In this document: in pieces, positions 18,393 to 57,333 of the stretch
How positions within the stretch are numbered: the first letter of the stretch is position 1
How the letters are laid out: each line of letters starts with the position of its first letter
Source: Pseudomonas sp. MM213
GTDB taxonomy: Bacteria > Pseudomonadota > Gammaproteobacteria > Pseudomonadales > Pseudomonadaceae
Length of the DNA stretch: 64,000 bases
Assembly: GCF_020423045.1 (NCBI RefSeq)
Contig: NZ_CP081943.1
Span: 3,782,001 to 3,846,000, forward strand
Direction: 5' to 3'
Position numbers and translations under genes: made by a program
Notes under the pieces: model-generated
What the model saw: only the letters and a program-made list of their open reading frames with translations
Databases searched by the model: none
What the model was told of the DNA's origin: nothing

Positions 18393-20277
18393 GGGCCGTA
18401 GCCTCCGCACTGATAGGGCTGGCGTATTCGGCTTTCAGTCGGCCGTCCTGGTCGAGGAGCCAGGCGTCCATGACTTGACGCACCACAGGCGCGGCGACGC
18501 CTGAACCGGACTCGCCGTTCTCGACCATCACCGACACCACGATTTTCGGGTCGTCGGCCGGCGCAAAGCCGACAAACAAGGCGTGGTCGCGATGACGCTC
18601 CTGAACCTTCGAGCGGTCGTACTTCTCGCCCTGCTTGATCGCGACCACCTGGGCGGTACCACTTTTGCCGGCGATCCGGTATTGCGCGCCGATCGAAGCC
18701 TTGCGCGCCGTACCGCGCGCACCGTGCATCACTTGCTGCATGCCGTGGTTGACCCGGGTCCAGTCGGACGGATCGCGCAGGATGATGTCCGGCATCGGAT
18801 TGTCATCCTTCGGCCGCTCGCCTTCGACAGTCTTGGCCAGGTGCGGACGGTTCCACACACCTTTGTTGGCCACCAGCGCCGTGGCCTGGGCCAGTTGCAG
18901 CGGCGTGGATTGCATGTAGCCCTGACCGATCCCGAGAATCAGCGTTTCACCCGGGAACCAGGCCTGGCGCCGGGTCGCACGCTTCCACTCACGGGACGGC
19001 ATCAGCCCCGGCGACTCTTCGAACATGTCCAGCGAGACCTTTTGGCCGATGCCGAACTTGCCCATGTAGGCCGACAAGCGATCAATCCCCAGCTTGTGGG
19101 CCAGGTCATAGAAGTAGGTGTCGTTGGACCGCATGATCGCCGTGTCCAGATCGACGTAGCCGTCACCGGTACGGTTCCAGTTGCGATACTTGTGATCGTA
19201 ATTGGGCAGCATGTAGTAGCCGGGGTCGAAGACCCTGGTCGACGCGGTGACAACGCCCGAGTCCAGGCCCGCAATGGCCACCGCTGGCTTGATGGTCGAA
19301 CCCGGTGGGTAAAGGCCACGCAGCACGCGGTTGAACAACGGCCGGTCGATGGAATCACGCAGTTCGGAATAAGCCTTGAAGCTGATGCCGGTCACAAACA
19401 GGTTCGGGTCGAAACTCGGCTGACTGACCATTGCCAGCACTTCGCCGGTTTTCGGGTCCAGCGCGACCACCGCACCACGGCGACCGCCGAGTGCCGCTTC
19501 GGCCGCTTCCTGCAACTTGATGTCCAGGCTCAGGACGATGTCCTTGCCGGGAATCGGATCGGTACGCTTGAGCACCCGCAGAACGCGGCCTCGTGCGTTG
19601 GTTTCGACTTCTTCGTAACCCACCTGGCCATGCAGTTCGGGCTCGTAGAAACGCTCGATGCCGGTCTTGCCGATGTGGTGGGTGCCGCTGTAATTGACCG
19701 GATCGAGAGACTTCAGCTCTTTCTCGTTGATCCGCCCCATGTAACCCACCGAGTGCGCAAAGTGCGCGCCCTGCGGGTAATGCCGCACCAGCTGCGCAAC
19801 CACTTCCACACCCGGGAGGCGGAACTGGTTCACGGCGATGCGGGCGATCTGCTCTTCGGTCAGCTCGAACAGGATCGGCACCGGCTCGAATGGCCGACGC
19901 CCCTGGCGCATGCGTTTCTCGAAGATCACCCGATCCTCGGGCGTCAGTTCCAGCACTTCGACGATCACGTCGAGCACTTGCTGCCAGTCGCCGGAACGCT
20001 CGCGGGTCATGCTCAGGCTGAAGCTGGGCCGGTTGTCGGCCACCACCACGCCATTGCGGTCGAAGATCAATCCGCGGGTCGGCGGAATCGGCTGCACATG
20101 GACGCGGTTGTTTTCCGACAGGGTCGAGTGGTACTCGTACTGGATCACCTGGAGGAAATACAGGCGAGCGATCAGCACGCCGATCAGCACCACCACTGCA
20201 ATGGCCCCGAACACGACGCGGCCACGCACCAGACGGGCGTCTTTTTCGTGGTCCTTGATGCGGATCGGCTGGGACAT
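18382..20277 (-). CDS. mrdA: Penicillin-binding protein 2 (elongation transpeptidase)
   Basis: PBP2 crosslinks murein during cell elongation. The 631-residue product has one N-terminal membrane anchor (about 25-45), a dimerisation domain (about 65-230) and a transpeptidase domain with SxxK in PPGSTIKPAVAIAG, SxN in MRSNDTYFYDLA and KTG-type KSGTAQVVA. The C-terminal tail is short and charged. It starts 9 bases after the rlmH stop and overlaps rodA, as in the standard rlmH-mrdA-rodA cluster. Confidence 0.98.
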   Translation of the reverse strand: MSQPIRIKDHEKDARLVRGRVVFGAIAVVVLIGVLIARLYFLQVIQYEYHSTLSENNRVHVQPIPPTRGLIFDRNGVVVADNRPSFSLSMTRERSGDWQQVLDVIVEVLELTPEDRVIFEKRMRQGRRPFEPVPILFELTEEQIARIAVNQFRLPGVEVVAQLVRHYPQGAHFAHSVGYMGRINEKELKSLDPVNYSGTHHIGKTGIERFYEPELHGQVGYEEVETNARGRVLRVLKRTDPIPGKDIVLSLDIKLQEAAEAALGGRRGAVVALDPKTGEVLAMVSQPSFDPNLFVTGISFKAYSELRDSIDRPLFNRVLRGLYPPGSTIKPAVAIAGLDSGVVTASTRVFDPGYYMLPNYDHKYRNWNRTGDGYVDLDTAIMRSNDTYFYDLAHKLGIDRLSAYMGKFGIGQKVSLDMFEESPGLMPSREWKRATRRQAWFPGETLILGIGQGYMQSTPLQLAQATALVANKGVWNRPHLAKTVEGERPKDDNPMPDIILRDPSDWTRVNHGMQQVMHGARGTARKASIGAQYRIAGKSGTAQVVAIKQGEKYDRSKVQERHRDHALFVGFAPADDPKIVVSVMVENGESGSGVAAPVVRQVMDAWLLDQDGRLKAEYASPISAEATAREE

Positions 20278-42749: not shown

Positions 42750-43562
42750 ATGTGGTCGCTCAGCGCCTGGCGTCGCCGGCGCATCCTGGCCAGGCACCCG
42801 ATTGCCGACGATATGTGGCAGCGGGTGCGCCATCACCTGAGCTTTCTCGACGGCATCAGCGCGGCTGAAGACCAGTGGTTGCGCGAAGCCTGCGTACTGT
42901 TTCTCGACGACAAACACCTGACCGCCCTGCCCGGCGTCGAACTCCATCAGGAGCAGCGTTTGCTGCTCGCCGCCCAGGCGCAATTACCGTTGCTGAAGCT
43001 GGGCGATCTGAACTGGTATCAGGGTTTTCACGAAATCGTCCTCTACCCCGACGACTTCCTCAGCCCGCAGCGCCATCGCGACGCCAGTGGCGTTGAACAC
43101 GAGTGGGACGGCGAACACAGCGGCGAAGCCTGGCAGCAAGGCCCCATCATCCTGGCCTGGCCCGGCGTGATGGCCAGTGGTGGCTGGGAAGGCTACAACC
43201 TGGTGATCCACGAACTCGCGCACAAGCTCGACATGCTCAACGGCGACGCCAACGGCCTGCCGCCGCTGCACGCCGACATGCGCGTCAGCGACTGGGCCAA
43301 GGTCATGCAAGAGGCCTACGACGACCTCGACGGGCAACTGGAGCGTAACCCGGACGCCGAAACTGCCATCGACCCCTACGCCGCGGAAAATCCCGCCGAG
43401 TTCTTCGCCGTCACCAGCGAATACTTCTTCAGCGCCCCGGATTTGCTGCATGAGGCTTATCCACAGGTGTATGAGCAGTTGAGGCTGTTTTACCGGCAGG
43501 ATCCACTGGCGCGTCTGCGGCAACTTCTGGCCGAGAACCCTGTCTATCAGGCACACGACTAA
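42750..43562 (+). CDS. M90 family zinc peptidase, MtfA-like
   Basis: The 270-residue protein has the gluzincin motif HELAH (His154, Glu155, His158) with VIHELAHKLDMLNG, and an E in ENPAEFFAVTSEYFF that is the likely third ligand. E. coli MtfA sequesters the Mlc repressor and has aminopeptidase activity. It begins 3 bases after the dedA stop and is likely cotranscribed with it. Confidence 0.93.
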   Translation: MWSLSAWRRRRILARHPIADDMWQRVRHHLSFLDGISAAEDQWLREACVLFLDDKHLTALPGVELHQEQRLLLAAQAQLPLLKLGDLNWYQGFHEIVLYPDDFLSPQRHRDASGVEHEWDGEHSGEAWQQGPIILAWPGVMASGGWEGYNLVIHELAHKLDMLNGDANGLPPLHADMRVSDWAKVMQEAYDDLDGQLERNPDAETAIDPYAAENPAEFFAVTSEYFFSAPDLLHEAYPQVYEQLRLFYRQDPLARLRQLLAENPVYQAHD

Positions 43563-46891: not shown

Positions 46892-47707
46892 TCACGGATA
46901 ACTAAACCCCTTAACCAACGTCAACTCCCCCACCGCCCGCATCGGCACCAGAAAAGTCTCCATCTTCTCGTTCGGCGTCCCCTCTTCCGTAATTACGGTC
47001 ACCTGCGCCGTAGTCAGCGGCTGAACCGCATCCTCCTGCCCGTCTTCATCACTCCGATACCCGCCCCCAAAATAGTTCACGTAAACGAGATACTGCCCTT
47101 TGATCGGCGCCGGCATGGCGAAGATTTCCGGCCCATACCCCGTCGTCACGTCCACATCCAGCGCCGCGCCATTAGGCGCAACACGATCGCCATACCAGAT
47201 ATGCGCACCATCGGGCGTGATGAGGTGCAAGTCCAGATCCGTGCCGTCGCTGTCCCAGGCCAGCAACACCCGCAATTTCGCCGGTGTCGCACCGCCGCTG
47301 GCGTTGAGGAACTGTGTGCGATGGCGTTGTTGGCCATCGGGGCTGCGCACTTCAACGCTGTTGCTGCCGTTGGGGAAGGAGAACGGTCGGTCAAAGCGGC
47401 CAGCGGGATCGATCTTCAGCGGCATGCTGACGCCGTTGACGATCAACCGGCCCGGTTCAGTGGACTTGGGGGTGGCTTTGATCTGGCCGGTGATGCGTGC
47501 GGTGTTGGCCTGGCCCACTGGCGTGTTCACTGAGGAGGCCGGGTAGTTGACGGTCTGGCGGAAGTTTTCGCCTTCGCCCTCGGCCGCGCCCGTGCGCCAG
47601 CCGCCGACGGGGGTGTCGAGTTTGACGGCGCTTTCAGCCGCAAAAACCGTCGGCAATACGCAAACAGAACAAAGGAACAGGAAGACCTGTGGATAACGGA
47701 GTTTCAT
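46892..47707 (-). CDS. magF: DUF2135 protein MagF (YfaP-like)
   Basis: Last gene of the alpha-2-macroglobulin operon. The 271-residue protein has a cleavable signal peptide (to about AAES) and a DUF2135 C-terminal domain (LRVLLAWDSDGTDLDLHLITPDG; YLVYVNYFGGGYR). The preceding strand-rich part contains PVGGWRTG and SNSVEVRSPDGQ. A likely DxDLH metal- or ligand-binding motif is present. It starts 3 bases after the magE stop. It is a paralogue of MagA at the other end of the operon. Confidence 0.9.
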   Translation of the reverse strand: MKLRYPQVFLFLCSVCVLPTVFAAESAVKLDTPVGGWRTGAAEGEGENFRQTVNYPASSVNTPVGQANTARITGQIKATPKSTEPGRLIVNGVSMPLKIDPAGRFDRPFSFPNGSNSVEVRSPDGQQRHRTQFLNASGGATPAKLRVLLAWDSDGTDLDLHLITPDGAHIWYGDRVAPNGAALDVDVTTGYGPEIFAMPAPIKGQYLVYVNYFGGGYRSDEDGQEDAVQPLTTAQVTVITEEGTPNEKMETFLVPMRAVGELTLVKGFSYP

Positions 47708-47710
47708 GGC

Positions 47711-49330
47711 CTATTCCAGCAAGAGGTGGCGGGCGAGCCCTTCGATGTAGGTTTCATCCTGGCCGTTGGGGTGTGCTTCGAAGGCCAGGTGCAGGTATTC
47801 GTGGGTCAGGTCGAGGCGGTCTTGCAGCGACAGCACGCCGCGCACGTAAATGCGCTGACGCTCGCGGTCCACAAAAGGGCGGCCGAAGGCCAGGCGGCAG
47901 ACGGCGAAGGTGCTGACTTCGTTGTAGCCGGTTTCGCTTTCGAGGCGTTGGCGCCAGCCGCGTCGTTGGGTTTGCAGCCAGTCTTGGGCGGCGGGCAATG
48001 CTTCGCAGGAGGCGACGGGGTTGTCCCAGCGGCTGAGGCTCGCGCGCGGGTAGGCGTGCAGCAGGATGGCGTCGTAGCGCTGGCCTGCGTTGGCTTGTTC
48101 GACGGCGTGCTGCCAGGAGAGTTTGTCCGGGCCGGGTTGGTCGGAGTGATAGGTGACGGTGCTGCCGGCGAGTACCAGGTCGCTGGTCCATGCGGCGATG
48201 TTGCGTGATTCAGCGGTGGCCGGGCGCGGGGCGACGCGTTGGCGGCTGCTGCTGTCGTCGATGCTCAGGCAGTCGCCGTTGCGGGTGGCGTTTTGCAGCA
48301 GGTAGGTGCGGATGGCGATGGCCAACGCTTTGGCGGCTTCAGCAGGTTCGGGTTTGGCTTCTCGTTGCAGGACGCGAGCGACATATTCTTCGCGGTCCAG
48401 ACGGGCGATCAATTTATCGCCCACCAAAAACAGTTCTCCGTCGCTGTGGATATCGAGTTGGTTGCCATTAGAAAACTCGACGCGAAAATCGCCCTGCAGT
48501 GGTCCGGAAGAAACAACACGATCCCCCGCCAGAATCCGCCCGATCGGATAACGAGAAAACAGGCCGACTTCGACGCAGCGCCCCGCATCCAGAGGCCAAT
48601 CAACCGGCAGCACCGAAGCCAACGCCTCACCATAATTACGCAGCACCATTTGACTGGTCCCGCGTCCACCCGCCCAGATCGGTGTGCCATCGGCCAGCCA
48701 ACCGGCAAACCCACCTTGGCGCGACGATGGATCCTGGTCGCCCAACCAGCTCCAGGTTTTCACCCGCAACCGGCCTCCGAGTTCACCCACGACATTGCCG
48801 TCGGCGGCATTCAACACCACGTCCAGCAACACTCGCCGAGCCTGATCCTGCGCGGGCATCACGGCCAGCACTTTAAGCAATTCAACCACCGACACTCGCG
48901 TGGATGGCTGCAATGAAGGCAAGTCCAGCAACCACTCCGGTGCCTGCCGTGCCTGCCAATACGTGCGCCAATCAGCGCCAGCAATGCCCAACCGCGCAGG
49001 TTCGAAGTACAAGCCGCAGGACTTCACCAGCGCCTGATCACGCTCGATCTTGCCGCCTGCGGTGCAGCAATAGACTTCTTCTTTCGACTGCCCGCGACAC
49101 TCATACGCTGGCTCACGGGCGCTGGTATCCACCAGCCAGCCGTACACAAACAACTTCCACAGACTGCCCAATGGCGTTTGCAAATCCGAAGGCAACGGCT
49201 CGCGAGCAATCACCTGCGTCCGGCTCAGCGACAGCAATTCACCCTTGAAGCCCAGACGCAGCGGCTCGTCCTGCGCCGTCGCCAGCGCAGGGATCAAACA
49301 CAGCAGCCACCAGAACCAACGCCGGGTCAT
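47711..49330 (-). CDS. magE: DUF2300 protein MagE (YfaQ-like)
   Basis: The 539-residue product (ATG 49330, one base after the magD stop) has a signal peptide. It appears composite. Near the N terminus SLWK (Ser56, Lys59) and later KTW (191-193) with GGFAGWLADGTPIW resemble the SxxK and KTG regions of penicillin-binding proteins. Residues about 313-345 (REEYVARVLQREAKPEPAEA) resemble the SpoIID amidase-enhancer/transglycosylase domain, with Glu324. Near the end is HEYLH (510-514), a HExxH zinc motif. These resemblances are my reading; the family's function is not established. Confidence 0.88.
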   Translation of the reverse strand: MTRRWFWWLLCLIPALATAQDEPLRLGFKGELLSLSRTQVIAREPLPSDLQTPLGSLWKLFVYGWLVDTSAREPAYECRGQSKEEVYCCTAGGKIERDQALVKSCGLYFEPARLGIAGADWRTYWQARQAPEWLLDLPSLQPSTRVSVVELLKVLAVMPAQDQARRVLLDVVLNAADGNVVGELGGRLRVKTWSWLGDQDPSSRQGGFAGWLADGTPIWAGGRGTSQMVLRNYGEALASVLPVDWPLDAGRCVEVGLFSRYPIGRILAGDRVVSSGPLQGDFRVEFSNGNQLDIHSDGELFLVGDKLIARLDREEYVARVLQREAKPEPAEAAKALAIAIRTYLLQNATRNGDCLSIDDSSSRQRVAPRPATAESRNIAAWTSDLVLAGSTVTYHSDQPGPDKLSWQHAVEQANAGQRYDAILLHAYPRASLSRWDNPVASCEALPAAQDWLQTQRRGWRQRLESETGYNEVSTFAVCRLAFGRPFVDRERQRIYVRGVLSLQDRLDLTHEYLHLAFEAHPNGQDETYIEGLARHLLLE

Positions 49331-49331
49331 G

Positions 49332-52300
49332 TCAGTTGACCGTGACCTGACCAAGGGCCGGTTTCTGTTCCTGGGCCTGATGCTGCGGCGCGTAAACCTG
49401 AGTGAAACGCACTGGTGGCAGGTTGAACTGGCCTTTCTGCGAGAAGCGCACCAAGTGACGCAAACGCAACTCGCCGCTCAAGGCATCCACCGGAATCGCG
49501 TAAGCCATCTGCCCCGGCTCGAAGCGCGCCTTCTCCAACGCTGTCGGTTCAGTGCCCGCCTTGCCCATCAACTTGATGCCCCACGTGGTGCGCTCGACAT
49601 CCGCGCCCGGCGGAAGCGGCACTTCGATCATGCCGTAGCGCAGCGGTTTCGCGGCTTTGCTGGTGATGATCACTTCGTCCAGATACAGGCTGTCGCTGGA
49701 CAACGGTTTGGTGCCCACCGCTTCCAGTTTGAAGGTGAAGGCTTCGTCACCCGGCACCAGACGCGACAAGCGACGCGTGATGGTCACAGCCATCGGATCA
49801 ACCGGCGGTTGTTTCGTCTGGAAACTCAACACAGCACGCAACGGACGCTCTTGCGTCCCGCTCAGCGACAACACTGCCGGCACCGACGAAGCACCCTGCC
49901 ACGTCCAATACATCTCACCGGTATCACCGTAGTTTTTCTTCCAGCCTTCACCCGGTGCCAGTGCGATGGTGGGCGAGGCCTGCTCGATGCTGCGTTGCAA
50001 CCAGGTCAGCGCCAATGCGCGCTCCAGGGTCGATTGCTGTGGCAACAAACGTTGCAACAACGCTTGCGCATGAGCCTGATCGAAGCTTTGCAGCGACAGG
50101 TTCAAGGCTTCGGCAAACGGCTGCGAACTGACGGCCAGACGCTGTTGCGCATCCGCCAGTTGCCGATTGAAAGCATCCGGCAGATTGACCTTCGACTGCT
50201 TCGCCAAAGAAGCGGTCAACGCACGCGCCGCCGCCAGGCCCAACGCCGAATCCGGATCGCTCATGACAATGCTGTCTTCGCCATCCTCCATCAGCGTCGC
50301 GGCATTGCCCTCGCCCGCTTTCGCTAGGTCATCCATCAAACCACTGAGCAACGTGTTGACCGGCAATTGCATCTGTTTGGCGAACGACAGGATCAACGCA
50401 CGCTGCAACAGCGGCGTGTTTTTCGCCTGCTTCGAATACACCTCCAGCACCCGCTGCCAATGCTCCGGCGGCAGGCTCAGTTCCAGCGCTTTGCTGGCGT
50501 GCCAGTCGGCGTAATAGGCGTACGCGGTGAGGAACGCGTCCGGCTCACCGTCCATGCCCCACCAGGTGAAACTCGCCGACGGCCCGGCCATTTGCACCAG
50601 GCGCAGACGGCTGTTCTGCATGATCAGGCGCAAGCGATCGCGGATCTGTGGGTTCGACGACAAAGTCGGGTAGGCAATGCTCAACGGCAACAAACGACTG
50701 GCCGTCTGCTCGACGCCGCCGTACGGATAGCTGAGCAAATCATCCAGCGCCGAACGGAACAGCGCTTGCGGGCTGTCATCCAGACGCAGGCGAATGTCCG
50801 TCGCATCTGCCGGCAAGGTCAGCGGCGTATCACCGCTGGCCACATCCAGGCTTTGACTCTGCGTAACGAGCCAACCTTCGCCGGTCGCGGTCAGACGCAC
50901 GGCCAGGGTGTCAGCGGTTTTGCCGTCCTGCACCAGCTCGGCGGTCCACTCGCCAGTGGCCAAGGCGAATGCCGGCAACGCGATGTAGTTGATGCCGTTG
51001 TTCAGCGTCACCGGCACCCGTTGTTCGGCGCCGGCGAAATGAATCACCAGCTCAGCCTTGACCGGTTTTTCCGCCTGGCTGAAGGCGAACACGCCGAGAT
51101 CCGGTTTGTCGCCAGTGCGGAATTTGGTCGGGCCGCTCCACTTCAGGTACAGCGGCTTTTCCGAGCGCAGGAATTGCTTTTTCTGCCCGACCTGACCGTC
51201 ATCGGCGATGGCTCGCGCGGTGATGCGCCAGCGGGTCAGCGAGTCCGGCATCTTGAAGGTGAAGCGGGTTTTGCCGTTGGCGTCAGTGATCAATTCCGGC
51301 AGCCACGCGGCGGTGTCGACGTCTTCACGACGCGGCCGCTCCAGCACTTTCACACCGCGTTCGCTGCGATTGGCTTTGCCCGGTGCACCGGGGCTGCCCG
51401 GCAACGCGACGTCATAGCTGATGAACGACAGACTGGCGCTGGTGCGCACGTTGTTGCGGCGCGGGTGGTAGAAGAACTGGTCGATGGTCGGCGCAACTTC
51501 CGGTTGCAGCGCGTAGACCATTTCGTCGACAACGCTGACCGTCAGGTGCGCCGGAATCGGCTTGCCGGCGAACTGCGTTGTCAGGTCCACAGACACCGTA
51601 TCACCCGGCTGATACACCTCTTTATCGATGACGATGGCGACGTCGATTTGCGGCGCAACCACCTTGATACCGGCGTTCTGGAAGCTGTATTGGCCACCCT
51701 TGGTGTAGAGCACGGAGAAGGTCAGGTTCGGCGCGAAATTATCCTTCACCGGAATGCGCGCGCGGTATTGGGTGTCGCTGAGTTTTTCCATTTTCAGCCA
51801 GTCGCCGCCCTTCGACATCAGCGCGGTGGCCTCGACCTTGTCGCGTTCCAGCGACAGCAAGGCATCGCTGACAGGCTCGGGAAAAGTGATCAGCGCGAGG
51901 GCTTCGTCGCCCGCCTTGTACTCGGGTTTATCGAGGACGATTTCCACGGTGCCGGGCACGGCTTTGACGCCATCGCCAGTGACCGAATGCCCCGTGGCAC
52001 CGACCACGCGACCATGGTCATCCTTCAACGTCAGGTTGTAAGTCCCCGGACGTTCGAAGGCCAATGTGAAGCCTTTATCGCTTGCCGCCAGTTTGCCTTC
52101 GCCCGTGGTCTGATCTTCCAGACGCACCCAGCTGTAGCCGCTCGGCGTGACCGCCTTGCTCTGCTCGCTGCCGCCTTCATTCAGGTAGCTGAACGCAACC
52201 TTGTCGCCCACCGCACTGAAGCGCTGCGGCGCGTTCAAGCGGAAACTCGCGGCGCCACGGTCGATGAGGATTTCCTTGGTGGTCTTGACCCGATACGCCG

Positions 52301-53897
52301 CGCCATCGCTGGCGAAAACGGTGAGCATGTAACGGCTCGGTTTCTCGGCGGCGGGCAGGTCGAGAGTCGCATTGCCTTTAGAGTCGGTGGTCAGTTCGGT
52401 GCTGGTCAGTTCCACCGGGAACTGCCCGAGGTATTGCAGCTCGTTATCGACCATCGACAGTTGCTGGGCACGCAGGCTCAGGCTCAACTTGGCATTCGCG
52501 ACGGGTTTGCCGTCCGGGTACAACAGCACCAAGCTGCCTTTCACCGGTTCGCCGGTGCGGTAATCCTGCTTGGCCAGGTTCAGCGAAATCTCGAAGTGCG
52601 GCTTGATGTATTCAGCCACGCGGAAGGCGCTGCTGTAGGCCTGATCCTTGTAGCTGAAACGCAGTTCATAACCGCCCGCGACCGCGTTGTCCGGCAGCTG
52701 GAAACGACCTTGAGTGCCGGCCTTGGAATCGAGTTTCAACGCCAGCGTTTGCAGCGCGGTGCCGGTGGCATCGAGCACCGTGACATTCACATCCGCCGCC
52801 GTCGGCAACACCGAGTCACGGGCGTTCTTGAACTCGCGACCGACGATTTTCAGCGAAACCCAATCCCCCGGCCGATACAGCGGCCGGTCCGTAAACGCAT
52901 AGAGTTTGGTGTCGTAGATTTCGCTGTCGTAATAGAAGTTCTCGGAGACAAATACCCCGCCCTCTTCGTCCTCGCCGATCACGAACGAACGCTCCGGGCT
53001 GACGTGCTTCAGGCGCAGCAAACCATCGGCATCGGTGGCGCCGCTGCTCATCACGCCAAGGCCATCGGTCCACAACACATTAACCTTCGGCACCGAACTG
53101 CCTTCGTGTTTGCGTGCCGCCCAGACCAGCAGTTCATCACCGGCAATCTTGCTCACGGCCACGGTGTTGGAAACGAAGACCATGGTGGTCGCGCGGTACT
53201 TGCCGATCAGCGCTTCCACCAGGTACAGGCCCGGCTTCAGGTTGCCCAACGGGACGTACACATTGCCCGGCGCGACAGTGACGAACTCGCTGGACGAACC
53301 GGCGAGGTTCACGCCCTCAGGCGGCTGGATCGGTTTGGCTTGCCACAGTGGATAACGGAACTGACTGACCACCGGCAGGCCTGGGATCAGTGCGAATTGC
53401 GGCTGCGCGTCGTAAGGCGTTGGCGCGGCAATCGCAGTGCCCATCTTCAGCTCAGGCACTTCCTCGGTGACTTGTTTACGCGACTCGTAGGAAAACGCCC
53501 GCTGCATCACGCGACGGGATTTGCGGTACCAGTTGTCCCACAGGTACGCGAGGGTGTTCGACAGGCCTTCACCCTTGAACTGACCGTCGCTGACCACGCG
53601 GTGCAGGTTCTTCTGGCGCTTGAGGAAATCCAGCGGTTTGTCGATGCGGTACACACGAATGTCCGCGCCGCCGTAAGGCTCCATGCGGAAACGACGATAG
53701 TCGCGGCCCGGCGCTTCGAGGCGCACCATCGCCTGTTCGTCGCTGGCGAAACTGCTGTCCGCCAGCAGGAAAAAGCTTTCACCGGCCACCGGCGTGTAGC
53801 CGCTCGGTTCGACGGTATCTTCGGCATTCACTGCCGAAAAAGGCAGGACCAATACCAACAGTAGAGACAGAAAACGCAGCATGCGGGCACCGGTCAT
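49332..53897 (-). CDS. magD: Alpha-2-macroglobulin family protein MagD (YfaS-like, no thioester)
   Basis: A 1521-residue periplasmic protein: ATG 53897 overlaps the magC stop (ATGA), a signal peptide ends near [10 protein letters not shown] domains fill about 30-700, and the A2M/complement-like region follows. The thioester motif CxEQ is replaced by GVEQ (Gly1061), so it cannot trap proteases covalently, as described for P. aeruginosa MagD and E. coli YfaS. It is the largest gene of magA-F and probably works with the other Mag proteins in the periplasm or outer membrane. Confidence 0.95.
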
Positions 53898-54532
53898 TGG
53901 GAGAGAAAGTTCAGTCGATAGACGCCGATGAAGTTGGGGTTGGCTGCGTCGGGTATCCATCGGGTGTCCTTCCATGTCATGAGTTGCTGCAGGCTCGCGG
54001 AACGCATGCCGTTGTCAGTGGGGGTGGTGGTGCCGGTGTGATAGGCGATGTAGCGGCCCATCCAGATCATCAGGTGCTGGTCGTCGCCCTGATCGAAAAA
54101 CATCAGGTCGCCGGGCCGGGCTTGCGCCAGGTCGCGGCCAACCAGATGGCTGTTGAACTGAATCAGTTTGATCGCGTTGACGTACGGCCCGACCTTGCCG
54201 CCGCCCTGCTGCCATTGCTGGGCGAGGCCGCGTTGCGCCTCGCTCAATTGCAGCTCCGGCGGCAGGTAGCGGTTGGACAGGCCATTGCTGCGCAGCCATT
54301 TGTCGTCATGGACTTTCAGCGCTTCGTTGGCGGCAAAACGCACCAGCCCCGCGCAGTCCTGCTGATACCAGCGCGGGCTCGGGCCCTGGGTCAGTTGCTC
54401 TTGGGCGATGCGCACGAACCAGGCGCGGAACACCTGGGATTGCTGCACGTCGAGCGGCGCGGCGTCACTGGCAAATACCCGACTGCCCAGCAACATCGCC
54501 AGCAGGCCGAGGCCTCGGATAAGTGCGGTCAC
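53894..54532 (-). CDS. magC: DUF1175 protein MagC (YfaT-like), NlpC/P60-like
   Basis: GTG 54532 overlaps the magB stop (GTGA) and gives 212 residues; ATG 54544 is an alternative. A signal peptide ends near SRVFAS. The sequence DCAGLVRF (Cys60) and [19 protein letters not shown] (His153) resemble the catalytic Cys and His of NlpC/P60 endopeptidases that cut murein peptides; YIAYHTGT supplies a possible third polar residue. This assignment is inference from motifs. It lies between magB and magD with overlaps on both sides. Confidence 0.9.
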
Positions 54533-56241
54533 AGCGCTTTCCATTCCAACGGCAGCCATTGCCAATGGCCGTCGGGCTCGCTGCCTTCCGGCAACGTCAG
54601 CGCGTATTTGCCGTAGCCGCCGAGCTTGCGCAGTTTCGGGATCAGGTAGGTTTGCGCGGCGTTGTAGAACACCGGTTCCATGTCCTGCGGCAGGCTGTCG
54701 AGGGTTTCCTGTTGCATCAGCTGCGCCATGGAATCCGGGCCGAAGTAGACCGGCATCAGCAAGTCTTTCGGCACCACGTCGGCCATCGGCGGGAAGCGTT
54801 TGTCGAGGGTGCCGAGGGCTTTGTCCACGAGCTTGTCGTCGAGGGAGAACAGCAGCGTCGAACCGTGGCGCGCCAGGCTCACGCGCATGAACGCCTTGCC
54901 GGTGATTGCGTCCGGGTTCTCGGCGTCCTTGGCTTTGTAAGGACCGAAATTGGAACTGACCTGACGCTGCCACTGGTGGTTTTCACCTTCCTGCTTCTCG
55001 ACCACCGGGAACGCGTGTTCTTCGACGTTGCCTTCGTAGGCGCCGACCATCGAGCTGAACAAATTGCCCAGGTCACCGTCGAGTTTGGCGCTGTCGTCGT
55101 CATTCAGACTGGCCACCAGCAGCGGCGTGTACAGCCGCGAATCGGCGTACCAGCACAGGCCGGCGGCACCGGCCATGTGTTCGGTCAGTGCCTGGGCCAC
55201 GGTTTCTTCGGCACCGAGTTTCACCAGCAACGGCTTCTGTTGTTCGGCGGCGAGCGGCAAGGCCACGCAAGCACTGGCGCCCATCGGCATGGCTTGCCAG
55301 ATCGGTTTGAAATCGAAGTCCGGCTGGTTTTCCAGTTCGTCCATGGCGAGGAAGCTGTGCCAGCCCTTGTCGTCCATGTCGAAACGCAGGCCGGCGAAGT
55401 TCGGGATGAACCGCTGGTAACCCATGGCCAGTACGCTGGAATTGACCGACAGGCGTTGTTTCACTTCCGGCGCGCGCAGCGGCAGGCCGAAGGCTTCGGG
55501 GAAGAGTTTCTGACCGCCGAGCAACGCTTCCAGCGATTGAGTCGAAACCATCCCAGGCTCATCGATCGGGCCATTACTGTTGTCGTACAGTTTCGAAGGA
55601 TTGGACAGCACCACCAGCTTGTCGCCATGAGAGGCAAACAGCAGCGCCTTGCTGTTGTTGTAGGTGAGCTGATACAGCGGCACCGTATCGCCGGCGACCT
55701 TGATGTCACCGAGTTGCGTCAGCTGCGAATCATCCATCGCCACTTTGGCCAGCGGCTCCAGCACCTTGGCCAGACCACCGCGATCCATCACCAACAAAAA
55801 GTCTTTCAGGCGACCATCCGCCCCGCGCCACAACGCGACATCCGCCGGTTGATCGAAAAGCTGCTCGATCAGGCTGTCCTGCAGCTTCAGGTCATGTTCG
55901 TAGATGATCCGCCGCAGACTGCCGATCAAGCCGAGGCGATCGGCATGGGCTTCGTAATAGAAGACGAAATCTTCGGTCAGGGTTTCCTTGAGGAACGGCA
56001 CCGCCAGCAAGTCCTTGGGCAATTGGCTCAAGGAGCGGGTTTCAAGCAGACCGTCCGGGCGGCTCATGCCCAGTTTGTCACTGGCCAATTGCGCCGCCGG
56101 CGCCTTGGGTTTGTGCATGAACCAGCCAAGTCCGGCCGCCACGCCAGCCACCAGGATCAGCCCGCCCAACAGCAACGGCCAGCGCCGGGAAGGTTTGGCA
56201 GCAGGTGCGTCAGCAGCCGGGGTAACAGTGTTATCGCTCAT
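54529..56241 (-). CDS. magB: DUF2138 membrane-anchored protein MagB (YfaA-like)
   Basis: The 570-residue product (ATG 56241, with a GTG two codons upstream) has one N-terminal membrane helix (about 22-45) and a large periplasmic part. Family blocks [19 protein letters not shown] and [15 protein letters not shown] are present, ending with [19 protein letters not shown]. No catalytic motif was recognised. It is between magA and magC and is likely the inner-membrane component of the Mag complex. Confidence 0.88.
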
Positions 56242-56277
56242 GTTCACAACGCCCAGTTCATCCGTGGTGCGGGATGC

Positions 56278-57069
56278 TTAATAGTTGAAAGTCTTGACCA
56301 GCAGCAGGTCACCGATCGCGCGCAGGGGCACGATGAAGGTCTCGCGTTTTTCGTCGACGGTGTTTTCGTTCAGCACCAGGTTGATCTGCGAGGTGATCAC
56401 CTCGTTCTGGTTGCTGGTCTCATCGAAGTTATAGCCGCCGCTGCCGAAGTTGCCCCAATAGTTCACGTAAACCAGATAGGTGCCATGCAGCGGCGCGGTC
56501 ATGGTGAACATTTCCGGGCCGGGGCCGTCGACGCCGTCCGGGTCGAGGCCGCCGCCGTTGCTCATCGCCGGGCGAGCCCAGAACGCATGTTGGCCGTCGG
56601 GGGTAATGATGTGCAGGTCGAGCTCGGCTTTCGGATCGTCCCAACCCAGCACCACGCGAATCCGCGCCGGGGTACGCAGGTTGTTGGCTTCATAGAATTG
56701 GACGCGCTTGAGGGACTGGCCTTCGACGCTGCGCACTTCGACGCTGTTGGAGCCTGCGCCAAACGCGTAGGGCCGGGCGAAACGCCCCTGGTCGTCGGTG
56801 TACAGGTTCAGAGGATTGCCGTTGACCGCCAGCGTGTGCGGCCCGCGTTGAGTGCCGATGGCCTTGAGCTGGCCTTCGATCATCGTGCGATTGCGCTGTA
56901 CGCCCCGGTCGATGGGCGGCGTTGGGTAGGCGACTTGCGGGTTTTCGCTGCGATCGAGCAGGCCGTTGTAGCGCCAGCCGCCCACCGGTTCCGACAGCTC
57001 GGCCGTCGGTTCGGCACAGGCTGCGGTCGCGCAGACCCACCCCATCAGCAATAGAAGAAATGAACGCAT
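56278..57069 (-). CDS. magA: DUF2135 protein MagA (YfaP-like paralogue)
   Basis: First gene of the mag operon. ATG 57069 (MRSFLLLLMGWVCAT) is chosen because GGAGG lies 6 bases upstream; an ATG 21 bases earlier would place that ribosome site inside the gene. The 263-residue product has a signal peptide, then PVGGWRYNGLL and SNSVEVRSVEGQ, and a DUF2135 domain (IRVVLGWDDPKAELDLHIITPDG; YLVYVNYWGNFGSGGYN). It parallels MagF throughout but is diverged. Confidence 0.9.
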   Translation of the reverse strand: MRSFLLLLMGWVCATAACAEPTAELSEPVGGWRYNGLLDRSENPQVAYPTPPIDRGVQRNRTMIEGQLKAIGTQRGPHTLAVNGNPLNLYTDDQGRFARPYAFGAGSNSVEVRSVEGQSLKRVQFYEANNLRTPARIRVVLGWDDPKAELDLHIITPDGQHAFWARPAMSNGGGLDPDGVDGPGPEMFTMTAPLHGTYLVYVNYWGNFGSGGYNFDETSNQNEVITSQINLVLNENTVDEKRETFIVPLRAIGDLLLVKTFNY

Positions 57070-57333
57070 GTGATGCCTCCTGCCATGCATAACGAAACCT
57101 TGCGCCTGATCCTCGGCGCGTTACAGATCCAAATACTGCGTTTCGTCAGAAAGACCCGTGACTATTGGGTCGTAGAAGGCGCGAAGGTTAGCCATTTGGC
57201 GGGTTTTTAACAATCGGATACATCTTGAATTGCGGGGGGGATCACGATGATTGTTGGGTGTGGGCTGAATAATCCTCGTCATTGCAGTAGTGCTGTTACC
57301 TGAGAACGCAGTCCTGCGGATGTACCCGGTGCC

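Follow-up and report, generated by a model that had tools for sequence, protein, structure and literature searches.

In this work we asked what magE does beside a bacterial macroglobulin gene: is its product an enzyme of the cell wall, a protease, or both? The gene (yfaQ-like) lies on the minus strand of a 64,000-nucleotide stretch of Pseudomonas sp. MM213 (contig NZ_CP081943.1, positions 3,782,001 to 3,846,000), here called the window, next to magD, which encodes an alpha-2-macroglobulin (A2M). The original prediction, which did not give the strand, had read three short motifs in MagE as the mark of a three-part murein enzyme. We find that MagE very probably consists of three separate domains, a penicillin-recognising domain, a SpoIID-type domain and a putative C-terminal zinc peptidase domain, each of which contains the residues that had been named. 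The other half of the claim, that all three make up one murein enzyme, is not supported: the zinc domain finds its closest structural matches among minigluzincins, and in eight of eight genomes with a short form of the protein it stands alone, without a SpoIID match.

Domain anatomy of MagE

Conservation was judged on 333 full-length rows, composed of the window, 240 listed protein matches, 80 loci and 12 further loci. They represent the best 120 of 1430, 120 of 719 and 80 of 385 matches, sets which overlap, and come mostly from Pseudomonas and Oxalobacteraceae-type relatives; the best 80 of the 385 loci in the genome-contig scan are close Pseudomonas. The positions predicted for SLWK, KTW, the glutamate and HEYLH are right (S56, K59, K191, W193, E324, H510, E511 and H514 were checked), and the six residues whose invariance was in question are each kept in 331-333 rows: S56 in 332, K59 in 331, E324, H510 and E511 in all 333, and H514, together with the additional residue E530, in 332. 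The exceptions fall in four rows, namely P0157, which is short and lacks S56 and K59, P0203 (K59T), P0080 (E530V) and E. coli H240 (H514N). Across 11 diverse rows 96 of the 539 columns are invariant (17.8%), among them S56, K59, E324, H510 and E511, with H514 excluded owing to H240; by our own arithmetic, which ignores residue type, the chance that five random columns would all be invariant is about 2 in 10,000. A loss of the zinc site in E. coli was considered and rejected: H240 has HEYLN, but the five other E. coli strains have HEYLH.

The N-terminal part of MagE has the penicillin-recognising fold of class D beta-lactamases and penicillin-binding proteins (PBPs) in the predicted structure. 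Beta-lactamases fill the 50 structural matches listed, and no SpoIID protein is among the matches listed. The SLWK motif is in register with the SxxK of PBPs and stands at the start of the active-site helix (residues 55-69). The KTG motif of PBPs is absent. At its expected place all 333 rows have KT followed by W (211), Y (80) or F (42), in MagE on a strand (188-196) followed by two more (204-212 and 217-223); the GGFAGWLADG stretch does come after KTW. The match found by hhalign stops before KTW, and the equivalence with KTG rests on the structure model and the motif. Where PBPs have SxN, all rows read SCG, in which the first serine is retained and the third residue is glycine. Compared by hhalign with a PBP profile, the domain gave P 0.0012 in both runs (0.0036 with the class A subset; probability 19.5%), a selection pattern keeping 35 of 48 PBP loci for one run and 41 of 48 for the other, some of which are the same gene twice; residues 80-201 alone gave P 0.025-0.56. 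Searches of family collections added little. Pfam Transpeptidase was matched by 1 of 11 members at 0.028, beside the unrelated HTH_31 (1 of 11 at 0.02), and NCBIfam pbp2_mrdA by 2 of 11 (best 8.5e-4), beside the unrelated BldD (1 of 11 at 0.0017). We rejected these leads, together with SprT-like and Peptidase_M78 for the C-terminal domain, since unrelated families gave similar values. MagE differs from class D beta-lactamases, BlaR/MecR sensors and PBP transpeptidases in SCG, in KT[W/F/Y] and in its fusion to two further domains. On the predicted structure the domain has the fold, and because KTG is missing we do not class it as an active PBP or beta-lactamase.

The SpoIID-like segment around Glu324 was correctly recognised by the original prediction. 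It passes the Pfam cut-off (Table 1), and each of the 11 members of the slice alignment is matched to PF08486 with an E-value of 1 or less, the best at 5.9e-10. The family profile also finds SpoIID structures in the Protein Data Bank (PDB), namely 4rwr (E 3.2e-4), 5i1t (0.013) and 5txu (0.015), and Foldseek with the full MagE model places the SleC lytic transglycosylase (9h68) at rank 36. In the alignment with 5txu, Glu324 falls on E101 of C. difficile SpoIID, which is required for murein degradation (PMC6221140). The last SpoIID motif aligns too, but this second match has about zero bits. A point against membership is the NCBIfam model SpoIID_LytB, which scores 24.3 bits, under its cut-off of 83.3. 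MagE thus shares with SpoIID/LytB lytic transglycosylases a domain over the Pfam cut-off and the aligned catalytic glutamate and, unlike those systems, carries it in a Gram-negative A2M operon; its SpoIID match is the only one in this genome. Its predicted activity is probably of the glycan-strand-cleaving type.

The HExxH motif of the C-terminal domain was well founded: predicted alone, the domain folds confidently, and a helix, three strands, the HExxH helix and a further helix with a glutamate follow one another in the gluzincin-like order. HExxH lies in a helix, with the motif kept in 332 of 333 full-length and 8 of 8 stand-alone proteins, and E530 on the next helix is likely the third zinc ligand. 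The top structural matches are minigluzincins, and no recognisable murein endopeptidase is among the matches listed. With abylysin, jannalysin and selecase the domain shares the layout of about 100 residues; it differs from these minigluzincins in being probably secreted, in two cysteines, C442 and C478, that are invariant in the 333 rows, and in the lack of significant sequence similarity to them in a PDB search. In that search 43 of 46 matches were to angiogenins or angiogenin chimeras (E 0.0073 to 1.9); angiogenin was rejected as kin, the best stretch covering about 24 residues; the remaining three were to MJ1213 (selecase, 4qhf-4qhj; E 0.62-0.87). Among the Pfam families, SprT-like was matched by 1 of 19 members at 0.012 and Peptidase_M78 by 1 of 19 at 0.11, and no NCBIfam peptidase family was matched.

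These boundaries also bear on DUF2300 (PF10062), a name for which we found no paper in the literature searched. The Pfam model scores 254 bits in MagE over two stretches, at window positions 48728-49093 (residues 80-201) and 47765-48127 (residues 402-522). The two stretches show no relation by hhalign (P 0.31; neighbouring slices, A5 against A3, gave P 0.058, probability 0.9%, over 19 columns), and therefore the apparent tandem DUF2300 does not amount to a repeat. Residues 80-201 fall within the PBP-like domain, whereas residues 402-522 run from the last part of the SpoIID domain through most of the zinc domain; PF10062 seems to be a composite of two different things.

The short form and the constant part of the operon

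Is the zinc domain always joined to the other two? Among 398 genomes of the phylum, 15 have DUF2300 over the cut-off, nine with two stretches (the full-length form) and six with one. In these six a short frame holds the match, which runs from profile position 26-49 to position 126 or 127. DUF1175 (MagC) was found in the same 15 genomes, and a sixteenth (G009) has a sub-cut-off DUF2300 match with stops, without DUF1175. Further short-form genomes came from a scan of 369 (G461; the other of the two matches over the cut-off was the window's own, and G457 and G702 had matches under it) and from a scan of 200 (G831, with five of the six matching genomes having the full length). A protein search with the short form gave two matches, and full MagE was not found among 78 genomes of another class.

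We compared 14 operons, eight with the short form (L118-L125) and six with the long one. In the eight, the gene at the magE position encodes the HExxH domain only, with no PBP-like or SpoIID match at E 1e-4. It adjoins a magF-type gene in all eight and magD in six, while in the other two the contigs end there; full-length MagE occupies the same place in the remaining six operons. By eye, the short genes open with a hydrophobic stretch ahead of the domain, and both histidines and the glutamate of HExxH, as well as E530, are kept in every one. All six genomes with the full-length protein have a SpoIID match, within MagE, and none of the eight short-form genomes has one. These short forms and the co-occurrence of DUF1175 and DUF2300 make the zinc domain the member that accompanies the Mag operon throughout the genomes sampled, whereas the murein-type domains are sometimes missing. 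A single change, which may be a gain or a loss of the murein domains, accounts for the two forms on a MagD tree of 18 rows, with support 52/75 (58% of 200 bootstraps) and the root undefined.

We also observed a mag-like operon (DUF2138, DUF1175, A2M, DUF2300, DUF2135) on a plasmid of Citrobacter portucalensis (L030). Thermotoga maritima, a control genome, has a DUF1175 match without a DUF2300 match.

The magE gene and its neighbours

MagE is encoded in an open minus-strand frame whose translation begins MTRRWFWWLLCLIPALATAQD; the plus strand of the same interval contains stops. Gaps of 1 base to magD and 3 bases to magF separate the gene from its neighbours (Table 1). Read by eye, the N-terminus looks like a signal peptide, and judging from it the protein is probably exported to the periplasm. 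MagE is 96% identical to its counterpart in P. fluorescens PS858, and an alignment with E. coli YfaQ, of the same family and with the same operon order, covers 99% of the query at 53% identity. The dN/dS ratio (nonsynonymous to synonymous divergence) is 0.08-0.11 in four Pseudomonas comparisons, with a maximum of 0.133 in any third of the gene, and because of these values we conclude that magE is under purifying selection.

Table 1. Features of magE and its operon, with positions in the window
Feature	Position	Strand	Basis or remark
magE (yfaQ-like) coding sequence	47711..49330	-	539 aa + stop; open frame; Pfam DUF2300 (two stretches) and SpoIID
Signal-peptide-like N-terminus, residues 1-21	49268..49330	-	by eye; predicted helix 2-17
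Penicillin-recognising fold (class D beta-lactamase/PBP), residues ~22-248	48587..49267	-	predicted fold and structural matches
SLWK (SxxK), residues 56-59	49154..49165	-	aligned with the SxxK of PBPs; start of helix 55-69
SCG, residues 104-106, at the PBP SxN place	49013..49021	-	333/333 rows; hhalign alignment
KTW, residues 191-193, at the expected KTG place	48752..48760	-	predicted strands
SpoIID/LytB-type domain, residues ~249-435	48026..48586	-	PF08486, 31 bits (cut-off 23)
Glu324	48359..48361	-	5txu alignment; 333/333 rows
Minigluzincin-like zinc peptidase domain, residues 440-539	47714..48013	-	model and structural matches
HEYLH, residues 510-514	47789..47803	-	conservation and model; helix 502-516
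Glu530, likely third zinc ligand	47741..47743	-	332/333 full-length, 8/8 stand-alone; model helix 526-538
magF (DUF2135)	46892..47707	-	directly downstream of magE; PF09906
magD, alpha-2-macroglobulin	49332..53975	-	directly upstream of magE; Pfam MG2, A2M, A2M_BRD
magC (DUF1175)	53894..54544	-	start codon picked by eye; PF06672 match at 53903-54466
magB, named by position; corresponds to E. coli yfaA (DUF2138)	54529..56247	-	open reading frame; relatives at same place; yfaA annotation
magA, named by position; related to magF	56278..57090	-	open reading frame; magA and magF queries match the same genes

Several side observations concern the same genes. In the four comparisons synonymous divergence is lower in the third of magE that encodes the zinc domain (47714-48010) than in either of the remaining thirds, 0.23 against 0.77-1.02 for L040 and 0.49-0.60 against 0.73-1.25 for the other three. 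In E. coli (loci L204, L206 and L031), yfaQ is disrupted in some strains: HB6 carries a stop inside the gene, next to an A2M gene with a frameshift, and in PSJ-16 both the A2M gene and yfaQ are truncated. H240 has the HEYLN mentioned above. MagD has, by eye, GGVEQ at the apparent place of the CxEQ thioester motif, which is typical of type I macroglobulins (PMC5764988); a MagD lacking CxEQ would be a type II macroglobulin. Elsewhere in the window there is a HELAH-containing protein at 42750-43562 (plus strand), which we take to be an MtfA-type zinc peptidase, and a penicillin-binding-protein transpeptidase domain at 18466-19476 (minus strand; G000:C1:3800466-3801476).

A role for MagE in the Mag system

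Part of this anatomy is already in print, since YfaQ has been described as bipartite, with transpeptidase-like and SpoIID-like parts (PMC12282094, 2025). What we did not find described are the zinc domain and the short form. The words "zinc", "metallo" and "HExxH" are absent from the main texts of PMC12282094 and PMC5764988, as is "macroglobulin" from that of the former, and neither feature appears in titles or abstract openings of the related literature searched, although supplements or other papers may hold them. The nearest known design is that of BlaR1 and MecR1, which like MagE have a penicillin-recognising and a zinc protease domain in one protein, and each end of MagE matches the corresponding BlaR1 part structurally. 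However, BlaR1 is a membrane protein with an N-terminal, cytoplasm-facing protease part (PMC3356374, PMC9834060) and the sensor at the C-terminus outside, whereas in MagE the penicillin-recognising domain comes first, SpoIID follows and the protease part stands last. For these reasons MagE, as judged from its sequence, is not a BlaR1.

Which part of MagE does the work? Being present throughout the operons sampled, the zinc domain is most likely the worker, and we give about an even chance to the reading in which a zinc protease is the core of MagE and acts on the Mag complex. The zinc domain would cut a component of this complex, with MagD itself, or a protein that it holds, as the likeliest substrate. 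The two murein-type domains, which a subset of the operons has fused to the zinc domain, would place or control the protease at the peptidoglycan; they would bind murein or cleave it. A periplasmic zinc protease encoded beside a protease trap suggests such processing or, alternatively, a protease that is itself controlled by MagD. The domains, their conserved residues, the operon context and the stand-alone zinc-domain genes come out of the computation directly, whereas export, the activity of each site, MagD as the substrate and the positioning or gating by the murein domains are what we infer. In P. aeruginosa, the loss of magE leads to higher-mass forms of MagD and seems to prevent its processing (PMC5764988). 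MagD is cleaved from 165 to 100 kDa, and both the cutting agent and the role of type II A2Ms appear to be open according to the same paper.

Could MagE nevertheless be a multi-headed murein enzyme, as in the original prediction and in the published view of YfaQ, with all its domains at work on the wall, opening it for the large Mag complex or remodelling it? Two of its three domains have murein-acting folds, so a link of these two with the cell wall, as originally proposed, is plausible. E. coli cells without yfaQ are wider, and their phenotype correlates with deletions of mepK, mepS, nlpI and other envelope genes (PMC12282094). Against such an enzyme stand the minigluzincin matches of the zinc domain, a short form that is the zinc domain only, in genomes without a SpoIID match, and the replacement of KTG in every row; we regard it as rather unlikely. 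Somewhat more room should be left for the N-terminal domain, and perhaps SpoIID too, as a non-catalytic murein-binding anchor for the protease, a possible arrangement that falls short of an even chance and is compatible with the explanation we prefer. It accords with the KT[W/F/Y] and SCG that stand, in all 333 rows, where PBPs have KTG and SxN, and with the modest hhalign probability against PBPs. Pure binding, however, need not require S56, K59 and S104, which are kept in 331-333 rows; the glutamate at position 324, kept in all of them, also counts against it, and class D beta-lactamases likewise differ at the third SxN position.

The remaining explanations are more distant. The authors of PMC5764988 ascribe the MagD effect to signal-peptide removal or to a chaperone role, report no stable MagD-MagE complex and suggest a cytoplasmic location. 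A cytoplasmic chaperone that aids MagD export or processing would fit the higher-mass MagD forms and the missing complex, but the signal-like N-terminus of MagE speaks against this location, and similar N-termini in the short forms (by eye), the enzyme-like conserved residues and the cysteines make a chaperone very improbable. It is scarcely credible that the three motifs are chance matches within an unrelated fold: they are short, and PDB sequence searches miss two of the domains, but fold, register, conservation and the independence of the domains all argue otherwise. Finally, because BlaR1 joins the same two folds, MagE might by analogy be its periplasmic counterpart, in which the penicillin-recognising domain would sense a murein fragment (perhaps freed by its own SpoIID domain) or a beta-lactam and switch on the zinc protease, which would cleave either the bait of MagD or another Mag protein, arming the macroglobulin upon a breach of the wall. 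We consider this improbable.

If the zinc domain is indeed the protease of the Mag complex, MagE would be a named candidate for the MagD-processing enzyme, with H510, E511, H514 and E530 as candidate site residues. The short form would then be its natural minimal version, a domain of about 100 residues with a signal-like start. The combination would be an unusual one, in which a protease is encoded in the operon of a protease trap and is tied to two murein-acting folds.
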